Of a stretch of 64,000 nt of DNA, positions 30,563 through 54,657 are shown piece by piece (position 1 is the stretch's first letter; the number at the start of each line of letters is the position of its first letter). The notes under the pieces were generated by a model. That model did not search any database and was not told the origin of the DNA. It saw nothing but the letters and a program-made list of their open reading frames with translations. Source of the stretch: Ruegeria atlantica (GTDB lineage: Bacteria > Pseudomonadota > Alphaproteobacteria > Rhodobacterales > Rhodobacteraceae); NCBI RefSeq assembly GCF_013032455.1, contig NZ_WQCF01000001.1, forward strand, positions 682,001 through 746,000. Direction: 5' to 3'. The translations under genes were made by a program, and so were the position numbers.

Positions 30563-31585
30563 TTAGTCCGAAGCAACCCCGGATGTTGCGTCGCCATGAC
30601 AAAGCCCGCCCAGCGCAGAGTACTGACAATGCCGGGACCGGCCCTTCCTTTTCGCCTCATACAAAGCCAAGTCCGCCGCATTCATGATTTCTGCCACTTT
30701 GGGGGACGAAAACTGGGTCGACAACGCGGTACCGATGCTGCCTGAAACCCGGCAGGTGTTATTCTCGAACTGCATCGGTTTTTGCAGCCGGTCGATCAGG
30801 CGCGCGGCTATTGATGACAGAATAACTTCGTCCGACATCCCCTTGAAAATAATAACGAACTCATCCCCACCGATACGAGCAACTGTATCGTCGTTGCGAG
30901 TTTCCTCGATCATAATCCGAGCGGCCTGCTGCAACACAAAATCACCTGCTGCATGCCCGTACTGATCGTTAACTGATTTGAAGAAATCCAGATCCAAATG
31001 CATCAGGGCGAAGGGGGCATTTCCCGAAACCAGATGCCCAAGCAGCACATCCAAGGCGCGTCGGTTTTTCAATCCGGTCAGCATATCGGTAAATGCCTGC
31101 TCCTTGGCCGCCAACATTGCACCCTGCAGGCGCAGATTCAGCGACCGCGAAGCTTCCATTGCGGCAGATTTTGCTTCGACAAGATACAACAGTTCGATCG
31201 CTAGATCAGTACCCGAGAAATCCGCGCTGGTCAGGGCATAATCACGTACCGCATCCAGTATCGAGATACCGAACGATAGGTTAATGACCGCACCTTTTCC
31301 CTGTGGCAGGGGCGCAATCAAGCCCTTAAGTGCCGTGCGTGGCGTGCCATGAAGTTTGAGGTGAAGCTTAGCTCCGGCCAATGACATCAACCCCGAAAGG
31401 GTCGTTACCGACCGTGGTCGAACCAGCTCGAACACTTCCAGAAAGTCTTTCCCCGCCATCGGTTGACCAGGTCGCAGTTTCTGCAAAGTCGGACCCACAC
31501 GCGTTATCCGACCATCTTCGTCAACTAGAACGAACATTGGGCAAAGTGTCTCCAACAAGCCCGCCAGATCACCAGCACCCTTCAT
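30563..31585 (-). CDS. HNOBA-domain diguanylate cyclase (GGDEF)
   Basis: A 340-residue cytoplasmic protein. The first 130 residues match the PAS-like HNOB-associated (HNOBA) domain (PMFVLVDEDGRITRVG). A helical linker (about 125-165) with coiled-coil character follows, then a GGDEF domain with TGLKNRRAL, active-site ARIGGDEFVIIF and an inhibitory RxxD site (RNDD) nine residues before GGDEF. It should make cyclic di-GMP with product inhibition. The start overlaps the stop of the H-NOX-like gene by four bases (ATGA), so the two proteins are probably partners. The end faces the CbiX-like gene. Confidence 0.92.
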   Translation of the reverse strand: MKGAGDLAGLLETLCPMFVLVDEDGRITRVGPTLQKLRPGQPMAGKDFLEVFELVRPRSVTTLSGLMSLAGAKLHLKLHGTPRTALKGLIAPLPQGKGAVINLSFGISILDAVRDYALTSADFSGTDLAIELLYLVEAKSAAMEASRSLNLRLQGAMLAAKEQAFTDMLTGLKNRRALDVLLGHLVSGNAPFALMHLDLDFFKSVNDQYGHAAGDFVLQQAARIMIEETRNDDTVARIGGDEFVIIFKGMSDEVILSSIAARLIDRLQKPMQFENNTCRVSGSIGTALSTQFSSPKVAEIMNAADLALYEAKRKGRSRHCQYSALGGLCHGDATSGVASD

Positions 31586-32169
31586 GACTTGCGCGCTCCA
31601 AGATCGAAATGGCGCCCTTTAGCGAAGGCACTTTCCACAAGCACCACCGAAATCACCTCGGCCTCGCCATCTTGACCGTCATGGGACAACATCGCCAAAG
31701 CGCCGTAATCGTCAGCCATGGCACGCAGTACTCCGACCATGACACTGGAGTATCCGGCCAGCCCCGGATGGCAGAGCAATCGGAATTCTGTCGGGCTAAC
31801 CTCAATCAACTCAAGCGCCGGCAGACAAAGGTCAGAGACGGCCAGCCGGACCCTGTCAGACAAATCGTCCAGTGAATGCAGGAATTCTACATAAGTTACA
31901 CCGCCGAACCGCAGCAGCCGACGCAAGTCTTCCATTTTGGGATGCGAGACCAGATAGGTTCCCAGATCCTCAAGGATTTCGGCACGCGGGCGTTTCAAAT
32001 CGGCACATACTGCATCCAGAACACGGATCGTCACATCGTCATCATAGACAAGCATGGCCTCAAACTCGGTAAAGCCCAGTTCAGCCGCGTCGGCCACGCG
32101 CAACCAGCATGACTGACCGTAAGTCACGCACACAAAAGATTGGACCGCCCGATTGATCAGACCATGCAT
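31582..32169 (-). CDS. H-NOX-like (HNOB) sensor protein lacking the expected heme ligand
   Basis: A 195-residue protein with the H-NOX fold signature: it begins MHGLINRAVQSFV, as H-NOX proteins begin MxGxI, and has EFLHSLDDLSDRVRLAV where canonical proteins have the heme-ligating histidine (pattern LDxxH). Here that position is Ser104. The YxSxR heme-propionate motif also appears lost, with CHPGL at residues 133-137. It may bind a different ligand or act as a protein sensor. I use ATG 32169 from family alignment; an in-frame TTG at 32211 exists. It is coupled to the HNOBA-GGDEF gene, suggesting control of cyclic di-GMP synthesis. Confidence 0.85.
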   Translation of the reverse strand: MHGLINRAVQSFVCVTYGQSCWLRVADAAELGFTEFEAMLVYDDDVTIRVLDAVCADLKRPRAEILEDLGTYLVSHPKMEDLRRLLRFGGVTYVEFLHSLDDLSDRVRLAVSDLCLPALELIEVSPTEFRLLCHPGLAGYSSVMVGVLRAMADDYGALAMLSHDGQDGEAEVISVVLVESAFAKGRHFDLGARKS

Positions 32170-32289: not shown

Positions 32290-33849
32290 TTAGAAGTCCG
32301 TCGGTGCCCCGCCCTCGGCCTTTCTGCGAGCCACGAAATCAGCCAGTTCTTCTCGGATTGCATCATCCATCGCCGGAGGTTCAAAGCTGGTAATGATTTC
32401 CTTGAACATGTGATGGGCACGCTCGGCCGTCCAGATGCCGCCCGCGACGTTCCAGCCTTCGTAGTTTTTCCAATCGCTAAGGAAGGGTTGATAAAACGCC
32501 GTAGTGTACCGATCCTGCGTGTGCTGAATGCCAAAGAAATGGCCATCATTGCCCACCGCACGGATCGCATCCAGAGCAATCTCATCCGGGCCGGTCGCTG
32601 TGATCTCTGGTTGCATATAGCGCTGAATTTGCTGCAAAACCTCGCAATCCATGATGAATTTTTCAGGGCTTGCGATCAGGCCGCCCTCAAGCCATCCGGC
32701 GGCATGATAAACCATGTTGGTGCCCGACTGCACCGAAGCCCAGAGTGAATTGGACGTCTCCCAAACAGATTGCCCGTCAGGCACATTCGCAGCACACACA
32801 CCCGACGATCGCATAGGCAGACCGTAAAACCGCGCCATCTGCCCTGTCATCTGAGTGGAACGCATATATTCCGGCGTGCCAAAGGCCGGAGCGCCAGATT
32901 TCATATCCACATTGGATGTGAACGTGCCGATAACACAAGGAATCCCTGGGCGCACATATTGAAACAAGGCGATCGCACACAGCGCCTCGGCCAGCGATTG
33001 CGCCACGGCCCCGGCCATGGTGACAGGTGCCATCGCACCGGCCAATGTGAACGGTGTCACAACAATAGCTTGCCCGCGCCGCGCCAACCGAAGACAGCCA
33101 TCAATCATAGGATGGTCGTGTTTCAGTGGAGACGTTGAGTTGATGTTGGTGTACATCCGGGGCGTTGCTTCGAACTCTTCGTGGGTCAGGCCACCTGCGA
33201 TGCGCACCATTTCCATCACGTCTTCGACCCGCTCTTTGCCCAGAGAATAGGCGTGCATCGCCTTATCTGTCAGGGTTAGCTTATCATAAAGCACGTCCAG
33301 ATGCCGCACACTGGCATGGATATCAACTGGCTCGACCGGATAACCTCCGGCGAAATGAATGCAATTGAAGTACTGTGTCAGCTTCAAAAGATTGCGGCAC
33401 ATGTCTCGGTTGCCAGGCACTTTGGTGCCAATCTCCATATCCCAGTAATTCGGCGGAGAAGACACGTTTCCGAACACCATGTTCTTTCCGCCGATCTCGA
33501 TCCTGTGTTCGATGTTGCGCGGCGTGATCGTGAATGTAGATGGTGCCTTGCCGACCATCTCCATGACAAAGTCCCGGCCCATACGGACATTGTCGCCTTC
33601 GACCGTACAGCCTGCCTTGCGCAAAATACCCTTGGCTTCTTCGTTGTAGAACTCGATCCCGATCTCTTCGAGGATGCGCATCGCCCCCTCGTGGATCGCC
33701 TCGATCCCTTCCGGATTCAGCGGTTCCGTCGGATGATCGATATTGACCGGAGGGCTCCAGGGCATCTGGTCGATTACTGCGCTACCCCGGCGCTCGGCGG
33801 CCCCGGCCCGCCCGCCAGCACGACGCCTACGCGATTTTGTATCTGCCAT
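32290..33849 (-). CDS. trimethylamine methyltransferase (MttB) family protein, non-pyrrolysine
   Basis: A 519-residue TIM-barrel methyltransferase of the MttB/MtgB superfamily. An Arg-rich, low-complexity first 25 residues precede the domain (TEPLNPEGIEAIHEGAMRILEEIG follows). No in-frame amber codon is present, so it is not a pyrrolysine enzyme. Relatives demethylate quaternary amines such as glycine betaine and hand the methyl to a corrinoid protein; no corrinoid protein or corrinoid activator lies nearby. ATG 33849 is preceded by GGAGG at five bases. Such genes are abundant in marine roseobacters. The substrate cannot be told from sequence. Confidence 0.88.
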   Translation of the reverse strand: MADTKSRRRRAGGRAGAAERRGSAVIDQMPWSPPVNIDHPTEPLNPEGIEAIHEGAMRILEEIGIEFYNEEAKGILRKAGCTVEGDNVRMGRDFVMEMVGKAPSTFTITPRNIEHRIEIGGKNMVFGNVSSPPNYWDMEIGTKVPGNRDMCRNLLKLTQYFNCIHFAGGYPVEPVDIHASVRHLDVLYDKLTLTDKAMHAYSLGKERVEDVMEMVRIAGGLTHEEFEATPRMYTNINSTSPLKHDHPMIDGCLRLARRGQAIVVTPFTLAGAMAPVTMAGAVAQSLAEALCAIALFQYVRPGIPCVIGTFTSNVDMKSGAPAFGTPEYMRSTQMTGQMARFYGLPMRSSGVCAANVPDGQSVWETSNSLWASVQSGTNMVYHAAGWLEGGLIASPEKFIMDCEVLQQIQRYMQPEITATGPDEIALDAIRAVGNDGHFFGIQHTQDRYTTAFYQPFLSDWKNYEGWNVAGGIWTAERAHHMFKEIITSFEPPAMDDAIREELADFVARRKAEGGAPTDF

Positions 33850-33969
33850 ATGATCCTCCGGAACTTGCGTCCTTTCATGCAAGCCCCGAAGTTAGGTGTC
33901 TGGCCGTTCTGTCTGCGACAGAGTCTGTCGGTTTTCTATTCCAATGCGGCGAAACTGATCTCTGAAAGA

Positions 33970-51309: not shown

Positions 51310-53327
51310 TCCGCCGCAATCTTCTCGGCTTTGCGGGCCTGCGCCTGCGCCGATAGCTCTGCCATCAATTGCGAAGCGCGGGCGATGGGGTTGGTCAGGT
51401 AGAAATCTTTGACCGCATTGCGGAAAGATGCCTTGCCCAAAGTAGCCGCATCAAGTGCTGCAACCTCATTCTCGATCACTTCATCAATGCGGGCCAAATG
51501 CGGTACCGCCTCGATCAGCACAGTGCGCAGTTGTGCCAGCGAGTCGAAGGGTAACGTTGCCCCCAGCTTAGCCGACAAGGCCCGCAGGATCGCCCAGTTT
51601 TCTTTCGCCTCGCCCGGTGCGAACCCGGCACGCATGGCCAGCTGCGGGCGACCCTCAGTATTCACGAACAGACCGTTTTCCTCGGTATAGGCCGCGCCCG
51701 GCAGGATCACGTCGGCGCGGTGTGCGCCCCGGTCGCCGTGGCTGCCCTGATAGATCACAAAGGCACCGTCGCCGATTTCGACCTCATCCGCGCCGAGGTT
51801 GTAAATGACATCCGCCGCGCTGACCGCATCCATGCCGCCTTCGTTAGTAGCATCCACATCCATTGCGCCGACGCGCGAAGCAGCAGTGTGTAGAACAAGC
51901 AGACCACTTTCGGTATTTGCCGCAATGGCTTGCGCAGCGGCCAAAACAGCCGCGCCGTCCGCCTCTTGCAACGCGCCTTGGCCGACGATGACAAGTGAAG
52001 GCTTGCCCTTGATCTCATCATCGCCGCCCATGTCGACGACTCTCTGCAACGCCGCGCGGTCGTCACCCATGTGATGATACTCATAAGTCAGATCCGCAGC
52101 CGGGCCGACCAGAGCAACCTCGGCCCCATGCGCCCATGCTTTTCGGATACGGGCGTTCAGCACCGGAGCTTCGTCGCGTGGGTTGGTGCCGATCAGCAGG
52201 ATACGCTCGGCACTGTCGATATCTTCGATCGCGGCGGTCCCGGCATAAGCCCCACGGTTGCCAGCTGGCAGCTTGGCGCCGTCGGTGCGGCATTCGACAA
52301 CACCGCCCTGCCCTTCGATCATCTGTTTCAGAGCAAAGATCGCCTCGACCGGGGCCAGATCACCGACGATACCAGCAGGTTTCTCAGCCCCTTTTAGAGC
52401 CTCGGCTGCTTTGGTCAGTGCTTCAGGCCATGTCGCCGGGCGCAGTTTGCCATTTTCACGCACGTAAGGCTTGTCCAAACGCTGGCGGCGCAGGCCGTCC
52501 CAGACAAACCGGGTTTTGTCGCTGATCCATTCCTCGTTCACGCCATCATGGTTGCGCGGCAAGAAGCGCATCACTTCGCGCCCCTTCGTATCCACGCGGA
52601 TGTTCGAGCCCAGAGCATCCATCACGTCGACGCTCTCGGTCTTGGTCAGTTCCCACGGACGCGCGGTAAAGGCATAGGGCTTCGACGTCAGCGCGCCGAC
52701 CGGGCACAGGTCGATGATGTTGCCCTGCATGTTGGAATCGAGCGTCTGGTTCAGATACGAGGTTATCTCGGCATCTTCACCGCGTCCGGTCTGCCCCATC
52801 TGGGTGATCCCTGCGACCTCGGTCGTGAAACGTACGCAGCGGGTACAGCTGATGCAGCGGGTCATGGCGGTGCCAACCAACGGCCCCAGGTCCAGATCAT
52901 CCACAGCCCGCTTTGCTTCCTTGAAGCGCGAGCCCGACAGACCATAGGCCATTGCCTGATCCTGCAGGTCGCATTCACCGCCCTGATCGCAGATCGGGCA
53001 ATCCAGCGGGTGGTTGATCAGAAGGAACTCCATCACACCTTCGCGGGCCTTCTTGACCATGGGTGAGTTCGTCTTGACCACCGGCGCCTGACCTTCAGGC
53101 CCCGGGCGCAGATCACGCACCTGCATCGCACAAGAGGCCGCAGGCTTCGGCGGGCCGCCGACAACCTCGACCAGACACATCCGGCAGTTCCCGGCAATCG
53201 ACAGACGTTCATGATAGCAGAAACGCGGAACCTCGACCCCGGCTTCTTCACAAGCCTGAATCAGGGTCATCGCACCATCGACTTCGATTTCCTGCCCGTC
53301 GATATTCACTTTGCGGAGGTCAGACAT
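51306..53327 (-). CDS. nuoG: NADH-quinone oxidoreductase subunit G
   Basis: A 673-residue iron-sulfur subunit. The N-terminal 2Fe-2S domain has [19 protein letters not shown], followed by the His-containing [18 protein letters not shown] and the CISCTRC...C motif of 4Fe-4S clusters. The rest is a molybdopterin-oxidoreductase-like domain without cofactor-binding function in complex I. It starts three bases after the DUF5333 gene. Confidence 0.97.
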
Positions 53328-53330
53328 GGT

Positions 53331-53735
53331 CTAGTTCGCCCTCAAATACACGCCAATGGCGCTGTTTCTTTCGATTTCCTTCTGTCCCAATGCGCAGAAG
53401 GATTTGGGGTTGTCATAGGAAACACCGCTCTGAGCCAAAAATGCTTCGCCCTTGGCACGCATCCGGTCTTTCTCGGCATCTGATTCCACATACGCCCGGA
53501 TTTCTTTATCCGAGTACCCCAGTTTGTTTGCTTTGGACCGCAGGTCCCACATCACGCCGATTGCCTTTAGCCGACGCCCGCTGATCGACGGGCAGTATTC
53601 CGAAATCTCATTTGCGATAGCGATGTAATAGAGTTCGTCGTCGATCTCTTTGACTTCGCGCAAGGGCGGCTTTGCTTCGGCGACAGTCGGCAAAGCAAGG
53701 ACAGACAGCAAAGCAAGCATTTTCACACCGGACAT
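53331..53735 (-). CDS. exported DUF5333 family protein
   Basis: A 134-residue periplasmic protein: signal peptide MLALLSVLALPTVAEA, then a small helical domain with two cysteines (EYCPSISGR and KSFCALGQ), likely to form a disulfide. It matches the DUF5333 family I recall from rhodobacteral nuo operons. ATG 53735 has AAGGAA upstream. The gene at 54663-55094 is a divergent relative. Function is unknown. Confidence 0.85.
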   Translation of the reverse strand: MSGVKMLALLSVLALPTVAEAKPPLREVKEIDDELYYIAIANEISEYCPSISGRRLKAIGVMWDLRSKANKLGYSDKEIRAYVESDAEKDRMRAKGEAFLAQSGVSYDNPKSFCALGQKEIERNSAIGVYLRAN

Positions 53736-53833
53736 GACTATTCCTTTCGTCTTGGGAAACCCAAGACGGTCGGCAGCCGGGGTGCTATGCAATAACATCC
53801 CCCCTGTCATGGCTTGATATGAAAAAACACGCG

Positions 53834-54202
53834 TCATGGTCGCTGACAGGTTCCTGCAAAAGTCAACTTGTCGTCGGTGATGCGCAGGTTCTGGGGTTCG
53901 GTATCCGGACCAACCTTCCACGCAATGCTGGAGGAACCAAAATTATTGATGCAGAATTTTGTTCCCTCAAAACGACCCGCTTCCCTCGCGCCATCCAAAG
54001 AAGCCGAGACACCGTTCACAACCACAGTAAACTCGGTGGGCATGGCCTTCTTGTCGACATGCTTTGCCTTGGTCCGAAAGAAGTGCCCGTCAAAGAGTAC
54101 ACGGTCACTGGACGAGGTCACAGTGCAGGCGGAAGCCACCGTCAAAGCAACAATTGCACTCAGCGTGGATGCACGGCCGGCAAGGGCCTTTAGCCCCAAC
54201 AT
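53834..54202 (-). CDS. putative lipoprotein of unknown function in the nuo operon
   Basis: A 122-residue protein. The signal peptide (LKALAGRASTLSAIVALTVASAC) ends in a plausible lipobox ASAC, followed by a beta-rich domain with two further cysteines (TKFCINNFG and FAGTCQRP). I do not recognise a family. A perfect tandem 15-base duplication (54191-54205, 54206-54220) repeats the start region, giving ATGs at 54202 and 54217; a third in-frame ATG at 54241 overlaps the MAPEG stop. I chose 54202 because it gives a clean signal peptide and has GGGG upstream. Confidence 0.65.
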   Translation of the reverse strand: MLGLKALAGRASTLSAIVALTVASACTVTSSSDRVLFDGHFFRTKAKHVDKKAMPTEFTVVVNGVSASLDGAREAGRFEGTKFCINNFGSSSIAWKVGPDTEPQNLRITDDKLTFAGTCQRP

Positions 54203-54240
54203 CTGTAGCCCCAACATCTGTTTATTCGTACAAGCCAACA

Positions 54241-54657
54241 TCAGAACGCTGCCACCAATGCCATGATGCCCATTACGAACATGCAGGCCCAACCGACGAC
54301 ATAAAGAACCGAACGTAAACCACTGTGTGGCCTGCCGATTCCGCGAATGTGCACAAACAGCATAACCAGACGGGACACCAGAACGACCGAGGCCAACAGG
54401 TTCACCCAGAACGGACTGACGCCCATCAGAATTGCGGCGACAGTGATCGCTGCATAGGCTGGCAGGGTCTCGGTGCCATTGAGATAGGCGCGATTCAGGC
54501 GGTACGCCTTGTCAGAATAATCTTGCTCAGGCGTCGCCCCCGGAGCCAATCCCTTACCCTGTTTTGCCAGCGCTGACAAAGGCGACAGGAACAGGATGAT
54601 CAGGGTAAAGATCACCAACGAAGCGATGGCGTGGCCATATTCTGCAAAGAGTTCCAT
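54241..54657 (-). CDS. MAPEG family membrane protein
   Basis: A 138-residue protein with four transmembrane helices matching the MAPEG (membrane-associated, eicosanoid and glutathione metabolism) family: an RANR-like RLNRAYLNGTETLPAYAA in the second region, and VVLVSRLVMLFVHIRGIGRP. Some bacterial relatives are glutathione transferases. ATG 54657 is preceded by AAGGAG; the in-frame GTG 54666 is less well placed. It lies inside the nuoF-nuoG interval. Confidence 0.85.
   Translation of the reverse strand: MELFAEYGHAIASLVIFTLIILFLSPLSALAKQGKGLAPGATPEQDYSDKAYRLNRAYLNGTETLPAYAAITVAAILMGVSPFWVNLLASVVLVSRLVMLFVHIRGIGRPHSGLRSVLYVVGWACMFVMGIMALVAAF

Follow-up and report, generated by a model that had tools for sequence, protein, structure and literature searches.

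An H-NOX-like protein lacking the proximal heme histidine is encoded beside a diguanylate cyclase in Ruegeria atlantica and belongs to a Rhodobacteraceae subfamily

Results

The stretch of DNA analyzed here, called the window, is a 64,000-nucleotide segment of Ruegeria atlantica (assembly GCF_013032455.1, contig NZ_WQCF01000001.1, positions 682,001 to 746,000). On its minus strand, the open reading frame that begins at the ATG at position 32169 (31582 to 32169) encodes a 195-amino-acid protein, which its Pfam match and predicted fold mark as H-NOX-like (HNOB) and which has no proximal heme histidine. The Pfam HNOB profile (PF07700) matched this protein with an E value of 2.2e-20 and 73.6 bits, against a curated cut-off of 25.5, and it also matched all 86 subfamily members scanned (E ≤ 0.001). 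In a phmmer comparison, Nostoc Alr2278 aligned with residues 1 to 153 with a single one-residue gap, located around residue 35, and with no gap across helix F or the YxSxR stretch. At the position of the proximal histidine on helix F, the protein has Ser104 (codon TCT; 31858 to 31860, minus strand), and the Y-x-S-x-R heme-propionate motif, Y-Q-S-T-R in Alr2278, is replaced by C133-H134-P135-G136-L137 (31759 to 31773, minus strand). Ser104 is not a single-sequence error, since each of the 30 genus relatives that were read has one of two residues there, Ser (22) or Ala (8). Met1 aligned on the canonical Met1, and a Met was found there in 102 of the 106 subfamily rows described below; because the alignment with Alr2278 showed no N-terminal extension of the type that occludes the pocket in soluble guanylate cyclase (sGC) alpha, nothing visible plugs the pocket.

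The AlphaFold2 model of the 195-amino-acid protein, built with 86 subfamily sequences, had a pLDDT of 90.5, and its top Foldseek match was Nostoc H-NOX (4iae; E value of 9.1e-14). VIA-align placed it on human sGC beta1 (8hbf_B) with a Z score of 21.8 over 177 residues and an rmsd of 2.0, with Nostoc H-NOX tied at 21.1. On the strength of this model, the protein is predicted to keep the H-NOX fold while its heme ligand is lost, a combination like that of sGC alpha.

The next gene on the minus strand (30563 to 31585) encodes a diguanylate cyclase of 340 amino acids, identified by Pfam and by its model, in which an HNOBA domain, a long helix, and a GGDEF domain follow one another. Its start codon and the stop codon of the H-NOX-like gene overlap in an ATGA (31582 to 31585, minus strand). 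An earlier note on this DNA had described this overlap with a GGDEF protein bearing HNOBA, as well as a strong H-NOX fold signature, Ser104, and CHPGL in place of YxSxR; the two substitutions were exact, and the fold signature and gene arrangement were likewise borne out. The HNOBA match (residues 11 to 79; 31349 to 31555, minus strand) had an E value of 2.2e-5 and 24.5 bits, just above the cut-off of 23.4, and the domain was matched in 53 of 65 cyclase homologues scanned (E ≤ 0.001). HNOBA is a PAS-like domain. The GGDEF domain (residues 164 to 318; 30632 to 31096, minus strand; E value of 2.2e-40) has an intact GGDEF active site at residues 239 to 243 and an intact R230-x-x-D233, which we take to be the inhibitory-site motif; across the 106 rows, GGDEF was intact in 106, R230 in 106, and D233 in 104. 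In the cyclase model (pLDDT 93.9), an N-terminal part made up of short helices and strands reaches to about residue 116, and it is followed by a helix at residues 128 to 164 and a GGDEF domain that matched 3ign with a Z score of 25.1 over 161 residues (rmsd of 1.5).

The cyclase gene lay directly downstream of the H-NOX-like gene, in the same direction in the window, in 106/106 subfamily rows and in 110/110 loci read later, a set that takes in the locus of the window itself and some genomes read before. Within the genus, median dN/dS was 0.085 for both genes (usable pairs with dS of 0.1 to 1.5, 77/465 for the H-NOX-like gene and 48/465 for the cyclase); purifying selection acts on the H-NOX-like gene. 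A gene for a 530-amino-acid MTTB-family (trimethylamine methyltransferase) protein (32293 to 33882, minus strand) lies just upstream of the pair in the same orientation, and the opposite-strand neighbors encode CbiX, Mem_trans, and a metallo-beta-lactamase-fold protein. None of 240 upstream stretches of 200 bases contained a full CtrA motif; TTAAC occurred in 82 of the 240, whereas single-base shuffles averaged 26.

The genome of the window has one HNOB protein above the cut-off and one HNOBA protein above the cut-off, the latter being the paired cyclase, and a profile search of this genome found no FIST (NosP-type) protein. HNOB matches were found in 54/54 genus genomes searched and in 221/295 Rhodobacteraceae genomes, and they split into canonical proteins with high scores and a divergent subfamily containing the window protein. 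With the subfamily profile, 317/390 genomes of an order sample matched at 1e-15, canonical proteins counted in, and 10/385 genomes of a class-wide sample matched at 1e-12. Four of these 10 matches scored below 1e-84, all from Rhodobacteraceae; one more was a canonical protein from Rhodobacteraceae, and five came from other families, all with both the histidine and YxSxR. The best 80 matches of a broader scan beyond the class belonged to Rhodobacteraceae genera or to less precisely named Rhodobacterales or Alphaproteobacteria bins. Among the genomes sampled, the subfamily was thus seen only in Rhodobacteraceae.

For a closer reading of the heme site, 106 subfamily rows were aligned: the window protein, 30 genus genomes (the best-scoring ones among the 53 others), and 75 family loci, a non-random sample drawn from the matches listed, with broadly higher scores. 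His104 was missing in 98/106 rows, which supports, on a wide scale, the earlier note's suggestion that roseobacter relatives lacking the histidine may form a subfamily. The residues found at site 104 were Pro (54), Ser (24), Ala (11), His (8), Gln (2), Arg (2), Asn (2), and one each of Thr, Glu, and Gly; in the 75 family loci alone, they were Pro (54), His (8), and others (13). In a set of 80 named loci selected for their resemblance to the Dinoroseobacter shibae protein, the residue was His in 14, Pro in 46, Ser in 8, and a different one in 12. Neighboring positions were steadier than site 104, with Leu100 in 104/106 rows, Leu103 in 101/106, Arg106 in 103/106, and Ala110 in 104/106. One genus (g24; loci L264 to L269, L271 to L277, L279, L280, and L282) carries subfamily members that have diverged further and show a short gap around residue 76; the 16 proteins read there have Pro (12), His (3), or Gly (1) at site 104.

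We then pooled 241 H-NOX/cyclase pairs and thinned them at 88% identity, which gave 195 rows: 3 canonical (histidine and YxSxR), 23 with the histidine and without YxSxR, and 169 without the histidine. Y-x-S-x-R was present in only 5/241 pairs, all of them canonical with the histidine, and in none of the subfamily rows. R83, R84, R106, R149, D153, D154, and Y155 were conserved in His-keeping and His-less members alike, whereas canonical rows differ at these sites; this is the pattern expected of an interface that is kept while the heme site drifts. Two HNOB proteins were found in 21 genomes among the matches listed, and both were read in 14. In 13 of the 14, a subfamily member, His-less in 13/13, is accompanied by a paralogue of canonical type, which has His in 12 genomes and Gln in 1; in the remaining genome (G070), both proteins fall outside the subfamily. 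The paralogue with Gln (G138, locus L060; Gln in ELQAEV) is a canonical-type H-NOX outside the cyclase pair that also has no heme histidine.

Several states of the heme site can be found within the family. Canonical H-NOX proteins with the same type of cyclase occur inside Rhodobacteraceae at four loci (L033, L278, L281, and L283), where, as in the window, an HNOBA-GGDEF-type gene lies directly downstream, and where, unlike in the window, the heme histidine and YxSxR are both present. An intermediate state, His104 without YxSxR, often has Trp at the position of the motif's serine (12/23, compared with 16/169 His-less rows); a comparison of 12/20 His104 rows with 15/159 His-less rows gave a raw Fisher p of 7e-7 among 1,750 tests, kinship being ignored. 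The D. shibae protein is in this intermediate state. On joined-protein trees, His versus not-His changed 7 times in 106 rows, 2 of these changes being forced by strongly supported branches, and 13 times in the 195-row tree, in which many branches are weak and loss is indistinguishable from regain. A count of 36 losses, obtained on the 195-row tree with regain forbidden, was dropped, as the tree is too weak to carry it. A single base change turns the serine codon TCT into Pro CCT, and two are needed to reach His CAT; the Ser/Ala rows of the genus belong to a starred group of 41 that also holds 9 Pro rows, and a few other Ser/Ala rows fall outside it; codon distance and grouping together fit a His to Pro to Ser course in the lineage of the window protein.

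The genome of the window also carries a norB-like gene, beside genes for a norC-like c-type cytochrome and a norQ-like ATPase (G000:C12, about 51600 to 54300, locus L310). We found norB (NO reductase) through the broad family PF00115 and named it by inspection of sequence and neighbors. The organism thus probably handles or reduces NO, although its sole HNOB protein above the cut-off has no heme ligand, and the presence of norB-like genes suggests that loss of the histidine does not simply reflect loss of NO from the organism's life. Across 80 genomes, norB was found in 10/19 that keep the histidine and 17/61 that do not (Fisher p of 0.056), and 8 independent pairs showed no significant association between norB and His104. 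Lost exposure to NO as the reason for the loss of the histidine thus draws no significant support from norB, which the genome of the window itself has.

Discussion

A pair like that of the window is found in D. shibae (genome G088, which we take to be strain DFL12), whose H-NOX belongs to the same subfamily (46% identity), has no YxSxR, and is also directly followed by an HNOBA-GGDEF cyclase; it differs in keeping His104 (locus L103) and in having Trp at the position of the YxSxR serine. Two papers list D. shibae H-NOX as a heme-based NO sensor whose NO-bound form inhibits the cyclase Dgc1 (PMC8846402, PMC7232146), and one of them extends this result by BLAST to a homologue in Rhodobacter capsulatus (PMC7232146). 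Using a light-harvesting protein as the marker, we did not find the R. capsulatus genome, to which this homologue (rcc02630) belongs, among the 295 family genomes (best identity of 85%). Farther afield, canonical H-NOX genes next to cyclase genes are mentioned for Shewanella woodyi and Legionella (PMC8846402).

The heme-less condition itself has a counterpart in the pseudo-H-NOX of sGC alpha, which likewise combines an H-NOX fold without heme ligand with a PAS-containing nucleotide cyclase, the fold and the heme-free state of the window protein being predictions; in sGC alpha, the histidine is described as lost in the human protein and YxSxR in that of a moth (PMC8196705). There, however, the pseudo-H-NOX is a domain within a eukaryotic guanylate cyclase and an N-terminal extension fills the pocket, whereas the window protein, with its start at the canonical Met1, is a free-standing protein of 195 residues encoded beside a diguanylate cyclase.

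We consider it reasonably probable that the window protein is a pseudo-H-NOX that is probably free of heme and continues to regulate its diguanylate cyclase, through protein contact or a different ligand. The ancestor would have been an NO-sensing H-NOX paired with an HNOBA-GGDEF cyclase; the lineage would have lost the propionate clamp (YxSxR) first and the heme histidine afterwards, with the fold and the cyclase-contacting surface retained throughout. We infer from the residues at the heme site that the 195-residue protein most likely has no heme, at any rate none ligated by a histidine at the proximal position. Gene order and the sister system in D. shibae suggest that it may still bind the cyclase of the neighboring gene, at the sensor half of that enzyme, so that cyclic di-GMP output would be set by protein contact.

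Binding of NO in H-NOX proteins breaks the Fe-His bond, and the histidine swings away (PMC8196705). It follows that a protein without the histidine is always "His-off" in that one respect, and it may be fixed in the NO-induced state. The model of the window protein taken alone matched NO-activated chains of human sGC (Z scores of 21.1 to 21.8) slightly better than unliganded or inactive ones (19.9 to 20.3), a preference that fits such a predicted "His-off" state and is near the tie margin. As a first guess, then, the protein would act on the cyclase constantly and independently of NO, and the direction of this regulation would presumably be inhibition if the polarity reported for D. shibae holds.

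An alternative that we think rather unlikely is that the emptied heme cavity binds and senses another ligand, such as a lipid, a fatty acid, another tetrapyrrole, or a quinone-like molecule. The polar heme anchors are gone while the residues presumed to line the pocket remain hydrophobic and for the most part unchanged in His-less rows (Pro117 in 169/169, Leu73 in 160/169, Val143 in 142/169, and Ile5 in 131/169). Pro117, presumably the conserved heme-site proline (Pro118 of Nostoc H-NOX), is also kept in 23/23 His-bearing rows and in canonical rows; its retention may point to a cavity that still has a use, which would count against a heme-free regulator. Bet3 proteins matched the model at Z scores of 8.8 to 9.5, and the title of one entry names bound palmitic acid, but this match may reflect just a common arrangement. 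Conservation of a hydrophobic core is, however, expected from folding alone; no polar residue that has newly become invariant and could point to a particular ligand was seen in the subfamily, and a broad range of residues occupies site 104 (P, S, A, Q, N, R, K, G, T, E, and V).

It is less probable still that heme is bound through His2, His76, or His98, so that NO or O2 is sensed in a changed way. All three are candidate ligands, being present in 154/169, 128/169, and 113/169 His-less rows, respectively, and in the five canonical rows Tyr stands at position 2 and Phe at position 76. The same histidines are nevertheless common where His104 is kept (His2 in 20/23, His76 in 12/23, and His98 in 13/23), so apparently no replacement ligand moved in, and the earlier idea of His98 as a displaced ligand falls with this comparison. 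YxSxR has been lost as well, and all three histidines are absent from 8/169 His-less rows.

A thiol redox sensor is a precedent from Vibrio cholerae, whose heme-free H-NOX is described as acting on a kinase of the cyclic di-GMP pathway when oxidized, via a Cys-zinc site (PMC7108781). We hold such a mechanism to be very improbable here: the window protein has five cysteines, and Cys133 occurs in 74/106 rows, but the others are less frequent (Cys14 in 43, Cys21 in 28, Cys55 in 37, and Cys115 in 2 of 106), and the lack of a conserved Cys set in the subfamily speaks against a zinc-thiol switch of this type. V. cholerae H-NOX differs, too, in keeping its histidine and in being able to bind heme. 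The idea of a decaying, functionless remnant of an NO sensor, to which the lost heme anchors and, in one genus genome, a gene matched in two overlapping pieces (G032:C2:184019-184487), as a frameshift or an assembly error would give, might seem to point, is strongly disfavored by the matches in all 54 genus genomes, the dN/dS equal to that of the cyclase, and the pairing with the cyclase at the loci examined.

A survey of 598 H-NOX sequences states that the proximal histidine is absolutely conserved (PMC7108781). This survey began from V. cholerae H-NOX, and we infer that it did not reach the Rhodobacteraceae subfamily. Our literature search, which found no report of a His-less bacterial or roseobacter H-NOX subfamily, did not cover two papers: Bedrunka 2018, reportedly the original paper on D. 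shibae H-NOX/Dgc1, and Iyer 2003, said to be the founding paper of the domain; the subfamily may therefore have been noticed before.

Returning to a pseudo-H-NOX that regulates its cyclase, we offer a wider proposal tentatively, as possible rather than probable: in the majority of Rhodobacteraceae, the pair would no longer be an NO switch. Heme would have been shed repeatedly, and the pocket would serve a different ligand or the protein would act as a fixed partner, making this a new class of cyclic di-GMP input on the H-NOX scaffold; D. shibae and a few others would keep the ancestral NO sensing as a natural control.

H-NOX proteins encoded beside cyclic di-GMP genes are read as NO sensors. 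If the heme ligand is missing across most of Rhodobacteraceae, as it is among the genomes sampled, that inference fails for most of them, and the subfamily would be a bacterial pseudo-H-NOX for which His-keeping and canonical relatives with the same cyclase serve as controls. An old question about the pseudo-H-NOX of sGC, namely what the H-NOX fold does for a cyclase once the heme is gone, would then be testable with small bacterial proteins.
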